Origin: Kineosporia succinea | GTDB lineage: Bacteria; Actinomycetota; Actinomycetes; Actinomycetales; Kineosporiaceae | Assembly (NCBI RefSeq): GCF_030811555.1 | Contig: NZ_JAUSQZ010000001.1 | Location: 496,001 to 560,000 of the forward strand | DNA: 64,000 bases | Reading direction: 5' to 3' | In this document: piece by piece, positions 61,155 to 64,000 of the stretch | How the letters are laid out: each line of letters starts with the position of its first letter | Numbering within the stretch: the stretch's first letter is position 1 | The notes under the pieces: generated by a model | The model's database searches: none | Seen by the model: the letters and a program-made list of their open reading frames with translations, nothing else | Told to the model about the DNA's origin: nothing | Made by a program: the position numbers and the translations under genes

Positions 61155-62366
61155 TCAGGCGAGCAGGGCGTCCACGAAGGCGTCCGGGTCGAACGGGGCC
61201 AGGTCGTCCGGGCCCTCACCGAGACCGATGAGCTTGACCGGCACCCCGAGGGAGCGCTGCACGGCGACCACGATGCCGCCCTTGGCCGTGCCGTCGAGCT
61301 TGGTCAGCACGATGCCGGTGATGTTGACGACCTCGCTGAAGACCTTGGCCTGCTGCATGCCGTTCTGGCCGGTGGTGGCGTCGAGCACGAGCAGCACCTC
61401 GTTGACCGGGCCGTGCTTCTCGACGACCCGCTTCACCTTGCCGAGCTCGTCCATCAGACCGACCTTGTTCTGCAGGCGGCCCGCGGTGTCGATGATGACG
61501 ACGTCGGCCTCGGCCTCGATGCCGTACTTGACCGCGTCGAACCCGACGGACGCCGGGTCCGCCCCGTCGCGGTCGCTGCGGATCGTGGGCACACCGATAC
61601 GGTCGCCCCAGGTCTGCAGCTGGTCGGCGGCCGCGGCGCGGAACGTGTCGGCCGCGCCGAGCACGACGTCCTTGTCCTCGGCGACGAGCACGCGGGCGAG
61701 CTTGCCGACGGTGGTGGTCTTGCCGGTGCCGTTGACGCCGACCACCATGACGACGGCGGGACGGCCGGGCTCGTGGTCGATGGCCAGCGAGCGGTCGAGA
61801 CCCTCACCCGGGTCGATGATCTTCTTCAGTTCCTCGCGCAGCAGCTCGCGCACCTGCTCGGTGTCGCGGACGCCGAGCACCGAGACGCGCTCCCGCAGGC
61901 GGTCGACGAGTTCGGTGGTCGGGTCGACGCCGAGGTCGGCCAGGAGCAGCGTCTCCTCGATCTCGTCCCAGGTGTCGGCGTCGAGCTTGTCGCGGCTCAG
62001 CAGTTCGAGCAGGCCGCGGCCGAGGGCGTTCGAGCGGGCCAGGCGCTCGCGCAGGCGCACCAGCCGGCTGCGAGGGGCCTCGGGGCGGTCGAGCGTGGGA
62101 ACCAGCAGTTCCGGTTCCGGTTCCGGCTGCGGCTCGACCTCGACGGTCGGTGCCGTGGTCGCGGTCTTCTCGGCCGACTTCTCGGCGGTCGGCGGGGCGT
62201 CGAGAACCTCGGCGTCGTCACCGGGACGCTCGAGGGTGGTGGTGCCCGCGCCGCCCGGCGGGAGCGGAGGCTCCTTACGTCCGCGTCCGGCGACGAGCCC
62301 GATCGTTCCGCCGAGACCGGCGAGCGCGACGATCGCGATGAGAATGATCCACTGGACGGTGTCCAC
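61155..62366 (-). CDS. ftsY: Signal recognition particle receptor FtsY
   Basis: 403 residues. An N-terminal membrane helix (WIILIAIVALAGLGGTIGLV), an acidic/Pro linker to ~residue 110, an NG domain with GVNGTGKTTTVGKLAR, DTAGRLQNKVGLMDEL and LTKLDGTAKGGIVVAV. It receives the Ffh-ribosome complex at the membrane. GTG at 62366. The GTPase motifs mirror those of Ffh at 53778. Confidence 0.95.
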   Translation of the reverse strand: MDTVQWIILIAIVALAGLGGTIGLVAGRGRKEPPLPPGGAGTTTLERPGDDAEVLDAPPTAEKSAEKTATTAPTVEVEPQPEPEPELLVPTLDRPEAPRSRLVRLRERLARSNALGRGLLELLSRDKLDADTWDEIEETLLLADLGVDPTTELVDRLRERVSVLGVRDTEQVRELLREELKKIIDPGEGLDRSLAIDHEPGRPAVVMVVGVNGTGKTTTVGKLARVLVAEDKDVVLGAADTFRAAAADQLQTWGDRIGVPTIRSDRDGADPASVGFDAVKYGIEAEADVVIIDTAGRLQNKVGLMDELGKVKRVVEKHGPVNEVLLVLDATTGQNGMQQAKVFSEVVNITGIVLTKLDGTAKGGIVVAVQRSLGVPVKLIGLGEGPDDLAPFDPDAFVDALLA

Positions 62367-62689: not shown

Positions 62690-64000
62690 TCAGCGCCCGT
62701 GCCGGACGCGGCCCCCGCCGCGGACCTTCTTGCCCTTGGACCGGCCCTTGGTGTTGTCGTGGGCCCTGGGCTGCGGGCCGGTGGCCTCGACCGGCTCCAT
62801 GACGGCAGTCTCGTCGGCGGCGGGAACGGGGGCCATGACCACGGTCTCGTCCGAAGAAGACGGGGCCTTCACCGGGGCCATGACCTCGGTCTCGGCCGCC
62901 GCCGGGGGGACGGCGGCCTTGGCTGCCTTCTGCGGCTGGCCCGCCTTCGCTGCCTGGCCTGCCGAGGCTGCCTTCTGTGCCGTGGCCGCCTTCTGCGCCT
63001 GGCCCACCTTCTGCGCCTGGCCCAACTTCGCTGCCTGGCCTGCCTTCTGTGTCTGGCCTGCCTTCGCTGCCTGGCCTGCCTTGACCGGCGTCATGACCTC
63101 CGTCTCGGCCGGGGCCGACTCGACGGGCTTCATGACCTCGGTCGCCGCCTCGGCGGCCGGTTCGCTCTCGTTATTGCCGGTGTTCTCAGGCCTGCTGGTG
63201 TTCTCGTTCTTGCTGGTGTTCTCGTTCTTGCTGGTGTTCTCAGGCCTGCTCGTGGCCTTGGGCCTGGTCTGGTTCGCGGCCGGGTCGGGCGCCGAGGTGC
63301 TGCGGGCGATGGGCTCGCGCACCGGGGCGAACACCGCGGTCTCCGCCGCCGAGGGAACGGACGGCTCGGACGTCTCGATGACCTGAGTCTCCCGGGCGGC
63401 CTCTGCGTCCGCCGCGGCCTTCTCAGCCGCGGCCTTCTCAGCCGCGGCCTTCTCAGCCGCCGCCTTCTCAGCCGCCGCCTTCTCAGCCGCCGCCTTCTCA
63501 GCCGCCGCCTTCTCAGCCGCCGCCTTCTCAGCCGCCGCCTTCTCAGCCGCCGCCTTCTCAGCCGCCGCCTTCTCAGCCGCCGCCTTCTCAGCCGCCGCCT
63601 TCTCAGCCGCCGCCTTCTCAGCCGCCGCCTTCTCAGCCGCCGCCTTCTCAGCCGCCGCCTTCTCAGCCGCCGCCTTCTCAGCCGCCGCCTTCTCAGCCGC
63701 CGCCTTCTCAGCCGCCGCCTTCTCAGCCGCCGCCTTCTCAGCCGCCGCCTTCTCAGCCGCCGCCTTCTCAGCCGCCGCCTTCTCAGCCGCCGCCTTCTCA
63801 GCCGCCGCCTTCTCAGCCGCCGCCTTCTCAGCCTCGGCGACCGAGGTCGCCTCGTCCTTCACCGGGGCGATCATGACCGTCTCGTCGGACGGAGCCACCG
63901 GCTCGCTCTTCTTCGACTCGACCTTGGCCGACGACATGGACGCGGTGGGCTCCGGAGCCGCCGGGACACCGGGCTTCACCGTCGGGCTCTTCACGCCGGA
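62690..64000 (-). CDS. Low-complexity protein with (AEKAA)28 helix and repeated ETxV(M/F)xPV motifs, N-terminus uncertain or outside window
   Basis: At least 434 residues; the frame is open to the window edge, and the GTG at 63994 has no clear ribosome site, so the gene may begin beyond it. Order: a motif DETVMIAPVKDE, 28 tandem AEKAA units (~140 residues, highly helical, charge-patterned), then ETAVFAPVRE, Asn/Glu-rich ENTSKNENTS units, TEVMKPV, TEVMTPV, KAGQ-type repeats, TEVMAPV, ETVVMAPV, ETAVMEPV and a basic tail (KGRSKGKKVRGGGRVRHGR). No membrane segment seen. The seven ETxV-type motifs look like a short linear motif, possibly phosphothreonine sites. No family recognised. Confidence 0.7.
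   Translation of the reverse strand, partial: SGVKSPTVKPGVPAAPEPTASMSSAKVESKKSEPVAPSDETVMIAPVKDEATSVAEAEKAAAEKAAAEKAAAEKAAAEKAAAEKAAAEKAAAEKAAAEKAAAEKAAAEKAAAEKAAAEKAAAEKAAAEKAAAEKAAAEKAAAEKAAAEKAAAEKAAAEKAAAEKAAAEKAAAEKAAAEKAAAEKAAAEKAAAEKAAADAEAARETQVIETSEPSVPSAAETAVFAPVREPIARSTSAPDPAANQTRPKATSRPENTSKNENTSKNENTSRPENTGNNESEPAAEAATEVMKPVESAPAETEVMTPVKAGQAAKAGQTQKAGQAAKLGQAQKVGQAQKAATAQKAASAGQAAKAGQPQKAAKAAVPPAAAETEVMAPVKAPSSSDETVVMAPVPAADETAVMEPVEATGPQPRAHDNTKGRSKGKKVRGGGRVRHGR
63418..63837 (-). repeat. 15-bp tandem repeat, 28 units, coding
   Basis: Unit GCTGAGAAGGCGGCG (minus strand) encodes AEKAA; all but the first three forward units (GCCGCGG variant) are identical. Such length and identity imply recent expansion or homogenisation and a likely variable copy number. 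Not a CRISPR: no spacers. Confidence 0.97.

Follow-up and report, generated by a model that had tools for sequence, protein, structure and literature searches.

A candidate multivalent phospho-threonine docking tail on a predicted membrane protein encoded beside smc in Kineosporia

At one edge of the stretch of Kineosporia succinea DNA analysed here (64,000 nucleotides, G000:C1:496001-560000, hereafter the window, from a one-contig source genome of 8,065,021 bases), an open frame encodes a long perfect repeat and a series of short, closely similar threonine motifs. What kind of protein carries such motifs, and what might they be for? The initial annotation had read the frame as a multivalent scaffold that displays phospho-switchable docking sites on a rigid spacer. 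The features on which it based this proposal, 28 AEKAA units, seven motifs and a basic C-terminal tail, are all present within 62690-64000.

The gene and its relatives

Read on the minus strand, the frame at 62690-64000 has 436 residues and is open at the window edge. The upstream sequence, which the initial annotation had recommended obtaining, completes it to a protein of 904 residues with a GTG start, of which the window contains no more than the C-terminal half. In full, the gene occupies G000:C1:558690-561404 on the minus strand (L009:2690-5404); in window numbering it runs from 62690 to 65404, the part beyond 64000 being outside the window. In the complete protein a membrane helix is predicted at the N-terminus and the motif occurs at 11 sites; the basic tail ends in RVRHGR (62693-62749, minus strand) and is conserved when the sequence is compared with those of orthologues and relatives. 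The gene is located between smc and ftsY. Upstream, Pfam identifies SMC_N and the SMC hinge at L009:5828-9784; the downstream neighbour (61155-62366, minus strand) encodes an SRP54-type GTPase (PF00448, PF02881) and is read as ftsY. NCBIfam gave no name above cut-off to the 904-residue protein or to two smc-adjacent relatives.

The N-terminal 135 residues, used as a query, matched sequences in Kineosporia mesophila and Kineosporia babensis, and an orthologue is present in all six Kineosporia genomes examined; the other five proteins have 877-1112 residues (880-1115 for the open frames of all six). Across the family, the N-terminal region is matched at E <= 0.01 in 11 of 13 genomes, namely 6/6 from Kineosporia and 5/7 from other genera, where the matches are much weaker. 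A profile search adds G004, leaving G012 (88% complete) as the only family genome with no match. Five of the six frames from other genera have 163-355 residues; the sixth (G010) is open for 1069 residues, with a later part that is seemingly unrelated, and none of the six has a T-x-x-[VILMF]-x-P-[VI] site after the anchor. For the K. mesophila orthologue, AlphaFold with a two-row alignment predicts, fairly confidently, a helix of membrane length at residues 2-27 and, with less confidence, a second helix at 57-98; mean pLDDT is 38, and residues 98-908 are below 50. In an alignment of 11 rows (A1), residues A23, P25, R28, G30, T35 and G38 are invariant.

In the order as a whole, 68 of 248 genomes give a profile match at E <= 0.01, the weaker of these being short and possibly due to chance. 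Among the 18 best loci outside the family (L128-L145), short regular expressions recognise an smc signature in 16 and an FtsY signature in 6, within the stretch examined. Like the Kineosporia protein, these unnamed small membrane proteins have an anchor with a PxxRxGxxLTPxGE-like segment and adjacency to smc, and half of them share an HR-type C-terminus (RHGR or RHRR at the end of 3 of 18, and a looser version in 6 others). They differ in size, with open frames of 72-394 residues, some of which include sequence ahead of the start, and in having no T-x-x-[VILMF]-x-P-[VI] site in any of the 18 strings examined. The 904-residue protein has the same N-terminal helix followed by PxxRxG...TP.G, and its gene the same position next to smc. 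These comparisons place the Kineosporia gene, as an enlarged form, in a family of smc-adjacent small membrane proteins in the Actinomycetales. The predicted disordered linker from the anchor to the basic C-terminus has expanded in Kineosporia to about 800-1000 residues, and the motif array, variable in copy number and spacing, was found in this one genus only. The reading proposed below would give the unnamed family its first functional lead; a literature search on smc and ftsY together with a membrane protein downstream turned up, judged by listing, only a review of another organism. Six of the relatives in other families (L128, L129, L132, L133, L134 and L140) share a short (I/V)DLR motif near the C-terminus, which is unlike the Kineosporia motif; in five of the six an acidic residue comes next.

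The threonine motif and its constraint

The pattern T-x-x-[VILMF]-x-P-[VI] occurs at 11 sites in the whole protein, seven of them within the window. The seven copies, located by pattern search and all on the minus strand, are DETVMIAPV (63860-63886, with the Thr codon starting, by lowest coordinate, at 63878), ETAVFAPV (63320-63343; Thr codon 63338), ATEVMKPV (63122-63145; 63140), ETEVMTPV (63083-63106; 63101), ETEVMAPV (62870-62893; 62888), DETVVMAPV (62825-62851; 62843) and DETAVMEPV (62789-62815; 62807). Beyond residue 100, each of the six orthologues carries 9-14 such sites; shuffled tails (500 per orthologue) have a mean of 0.04-0.16 and a highest single value of 3. A variant with Pro at +2, TMPMAPV at residue 178 of the 904-residue protein, has counterparts at the same place in the orthologues in the form of TMPLAPV, TMPMLPV, TRPIAPV or TRPMAPV. 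AlphaFold run on the window fragment as a single sequence predicts no structure for the motifs.

The residue at the Thr position itself is the least variable among the positions left free in the motif search. A pattern that leaves the Thr position free and restricts +1, +2, +3, +5 and +6 finds 61 sites in the six orthologues. The residue at the Thr position is Thr in 60 and Val in the remaining one; 49 sites have Glu at -1 and 45 have Asp at -2. In the tails, matches to the looser xxx[VILMF]xP[VI] begin with Thr at 72 of 76 sites and with Ser at 0 of 76, the tails being composed of 7.0% Thr and 6.8% Ser. Leaving +3 free yields 75 sites, of which 72 are hydrophobic at this position (Met 41, Ile 24, Phe 3, Leu 3, Val 1, other 3), and leaving +5 and +6 free yields Pro-Val or Pro-Ile in 38 of 39. 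Glu or Asp is found at -1 in 52 of the 75 sites and at -2 in 58.

The codons of the motif copies are also informative. When each of the 61 copies is paired with every other, in its own species and across species, the Thr codon shows synonymous differences in 53% of pairs and non-synonymous ones in 3%; at position -3, non-synonymous differences reach 71%. Pairs taken inside a single gene have unlike Thr codons in 209 of 404 cases, all of them synonymous, as is necessarily the case since the pattern requires Thr. The synonymous variety rules out that the motif is freshly copied DNA only, and some copies are still clearly recent duplicates, for example four in G008. The ratio pN/pS was computed for six pairs. 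The closest of them, G007 and G009, gives 0.0 for the anchor (the first 95 residues), 0.147 for the motif and 0.721 for the linker, and four other pairs have the same direction. The exception is G006-G008, with 0.79 in the motif above 0.68 in the linker, perhaps from misaligned copies. The initial annotation had named homologues that lack motif conservation as the finding that would undo its proposal; the Kineosporia orthologues keep the motif while the rod and the linkers vary.

The motif recurs in other proteins of the genus. In the window genome, the DNA pattern [DE]-T-x-[VMI]-[ILMF]-x-P-[VA] has 18 matches versus 0 for the reversed control. Nine are in the gene for the 904-residue protein, two in the C-terminal tail of a protein read as NuoI from its iron-sulphur cluster motifs, one in a kinase linker (L082), one in a presumably aldehyde-dehydrogenase-like frame and five in frames judged spurious by reading. 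For a looser pattern in the 13 family genomes the reversed control is not zero (0-6 per genome), and the matches number 19 versus 4 in G005, 14 versus 4 in G007, and 2-6 versus 1-6 in the seven genomes of other genera; 7 of 13 matches in G008 and 5 of 14 in G009 fall inside the gene. With a stricter pattern, the matches inside the gene are 9 of 10 in G000, 7 of 9 in G005, 9 of 10 in G006 and 4 of 7 in G007. Over 248 genomes of the order, this stricter pattern gives 6-10 matches in each of the six Kineosporia and at most 4 in any other.

Searches of the window genome yield 24 matches to kinases and 9 to FHA domains, with none of the latter seen near the gene for the 904-residue protein. A kinase frame could be read at 18 of the 24 kinase loci, and motifs were found in only two. 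In L082 (G000:C1:3164403-3165137), a linker between the kinase domain and hydrophobic segments contains TSVLPP, TSVIPP, TSVIHP and TSVIPP, all of the form T-S-V-(I/L)-x-P; in L084, PTAVIAPV follows the kinase domain. Low-complexity C-terminal NuoI tails with DDTAVIPPV-type motifs are present in four of the six Kineosporia (G000, L146; G008, L148; G009, L149; G006, L151), and in these copies Pro is often at +4, alongside or replacing the one at +5. The NuoI of G005 and G007 has no motif, and neither do seven NuoI frames from other genera, three of which, from genus g6, are possibly truncated or misjoined, as they lie at the end of a contig or run on from it. Among 11 further matches in Kineosporia, the motif stands in plausible linkers of a membrane protein (L193 and L196, orthologues) and of L188, which we take to be a CHAD-like protein; six of the 11 seem to be in folded proteins, at chain ends or in spurious frames, and L191 and L197 were not recovered in frame. 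In L193 and L196, DETQVMNPV and ATRMMPPV stand ahead of a hydrophobic, probably membrane segment, an arrangement conserved in two Kineosporia genomes.

A candidate kinase-gated docking strip

We propose that the Kineosporia protein is a membrane-anchored, multivalent phospho-threonine docking tail read by forkhead-associated (FHA) domains, and assign this reading a probability of about 0.56. The predicted N-terminal helix would anchor the protein in the membrane with the tail in the cytoplasm, an orientation suggested by the Arg residues after the helix and by the lack of a charged residue ahead of it. The expanded, disordered linker would then display 9-14 T-x-x-hydrophobic-x-P-(V/I) sites, usually after Asp-Glu. 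Each site would be the target of a Ser/Thr kinase and, once phosphorylated, would be bound by an FHA domain, and the tail would act as a multivalent, kinase-gated docking strip at the membrane. We infer the phosphorylation, the FHA reading, the topology and the clients from sequence.

The likeness to Ser/Thr-kinase sites, on which the initial annotation relied, holds in part. In M. tuberculosis, PknA-dependent Thr sites are enriched, according to the sections consulted, in acidic residues at -1 and at -3 to -6, Pro at -1 and +2, Leu or Val at +3 and basic residues at +4, with no significant enrichment in the PknB set (PMC7164672). Phosphopeptides lowered by a PknA/PknB inhibitor are described, in the portion consulted, as 88% on Thr, with the motifs Glu-x-x-pThr and pThr-x-Pro (PMC5845002). 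The Kineosporia motif agrees with the PknA-type sites in its acidic -1, its hydrophobic +3 and its use of Thr over Ser. It mostly departs from them at -3, +2 and +4 (acidic, Pro and basic in 7, 6 and 11 of 75 sites, respectively), the preferences being statistical enrichments in another genus and not strict requirements. Our confidence in the docking strip is slightly lowered because the published preferences for acidic -3 and basic +4 are mostly unmet. The reading also gains support from the copies of the motif carried by two Ser/Thr kinases and by the NuoI tails.

The requirements of the reader domain are consistent with the motif as well. Binding by FHA domains depends on the residue at pT+3, and the ligand classes listed in the part of the source consulted include pTXX(M) and pTXX(V) (PMC5549992), so that the Met and Val found at +3 in Kineosporia are favourable. 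A close parallel is FhaA, which, in the account available from the excerpt, binds CwlM via pT382 in the peptide NDRPTGTFTF, with Phe at +3, and which may be recruited by the pseudokinase region of MurJ/MviN (PMC6180346). In both systems an FHA domain would recognise a Thr site that has a hydrophobic +3. They differ in that two sites are described in CwlM, compared with 9-14 here, in that the proteins are unrelated, and in that the Kineosporia sites are known from sequence alone. The bacterial FHA ligands in the consulted portions of the papers cited here have one or two sites. About ten conserved sites, with the motif also on NuoI and kinases of the same genus, would be well suited to the study of phospho-dependent, multivalent assembly in a bacterium. 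A search for literature on multivalent FHA ligands found, judged by title, none that was close, and we make no firm claim that such an arrangement is unpublished.

GarA and OdhI have an N-terminal switch of the ETTxxF type. An FHA protein of the window genome, L065, carries VETTISF. The Kineosporia motif shares with these the Glu before the Thr and the hydrophobic +3; it differs from GarA, where the FHA domain is in the same chain, in that Pfam reports none in the 904-residue protein.

A genus-wide phospho-threonine code, in which the motif was amplified about tenfold on the strip and separately gained on the NuoI tail and kinase linkers, is a speculative and rather doubtful extension. A shared FHA reader could then cluster respiratory, kinase and chromosome-linked membrane proteins when the kinases are active.

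The regularity of the C-terminal part of the motif speaks for a different use. When left free, Pro +5 and Val/Ile +6 recur as faithfully as the Thr does, and the kinase and FHA rules, in the portions of the publications consulted, make no demand for either (PMC7164672, PMC5549992, PMC5845002). These strict positions fall outside the published rules, and another reader may exist. It is a real possibility, though we hold it to be an unlikely one, that the motif docks as a peptide with no need of phosphorylation, for instance as a strand added to the sheet of a partner, and that the Thr serves for packing or hydrogen bonding; the exclusion of Ser, the acidic residues at -1 and -2 and the recurrence in kinase linkers fit a kinase site better. 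Many sites in sequence predicted to be without structure would also suit a tail in which phosphorylation alters only charge or phase behaviour, with no specific FHA reader. A mere charge switch, however, needs neither the hydrophobic +3 nor the exclusion of Ser, which makes this reading improbable.

The AEKAA rod

The 28 exact AEKAA units (63413-63832, minus strand) were identified by sequence count and as a 15-bp DNA repeat by TRF, which reports 28.2 copies of the unit with 99% matches at 63411-63833. The single-helix rod envisaged in the initial annotation is supported by AlphaFold, which, for the window fragment folded alone as a single sequence, predicts one continuous helix that spans the rod and its flanks (residues 50-206 of the fragment, with a core pLDDT of about 85-93) and a weaker helix at residues 311-350. 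The rigid spacer as a design element did not survive comparison: the rod is intact in the window species only, degenerate in one of the five Kineosporia orthologues and absent from the other four. The degenerate case (L046, from G005) has an Ala/Glu/Lys-rich stretch of roughly 250 residues in place of the perfect repeat. A conserved device is ruled out by this distribution, and the rod is best seen as a species-specific expansion of a 15-bp tandem repeat.

The distribution of the rod also bears on the view that the protein tethers the nucleoid or chromosome. The 904-residue protein matches the Pfam model for the histone H1-like HC2 (PF07382) with an E-value of 1.2e-19, three stretches passing; the basic end is conserved, and smc signatures accompany most of the best loci in other families. 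HC2 and the 904-residue protein have in common an Ala/Lys-rich repeat. The best match, however, falls at residues 526-673, essentially on the Glu/Lys rod and not in a part conserved in the orthologues, and gene adjacency alone says little, so we consider a tether quite improbable. The histone-like assignment, which also takes in NF038053 and NF038052 (both of which score below their cut-offs), was set aside as the leading account, its matches lying on or around the rod. That the whole is neutral low-complexity sequence, as the fast drift of the linkers and rod and their expansion by short tandem repeats might suggest, is very improbable, given an anchor and motifs that are constrained while the linkers drift almost freely, and codon data that disfavour it.

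Further tandem arrays, imperfect and with an 18-bp unit, are present in the linkers between motifs at 62916-63254 of the window. Elsewhere in the genome, L002 (G000:C1:7402713-7402917) matches the rod at 84% at the DNA level; one of its minus frames reads as an AKKAAAKKAAA-type array, a lysine-rich stretch and not an AEKAA rod.
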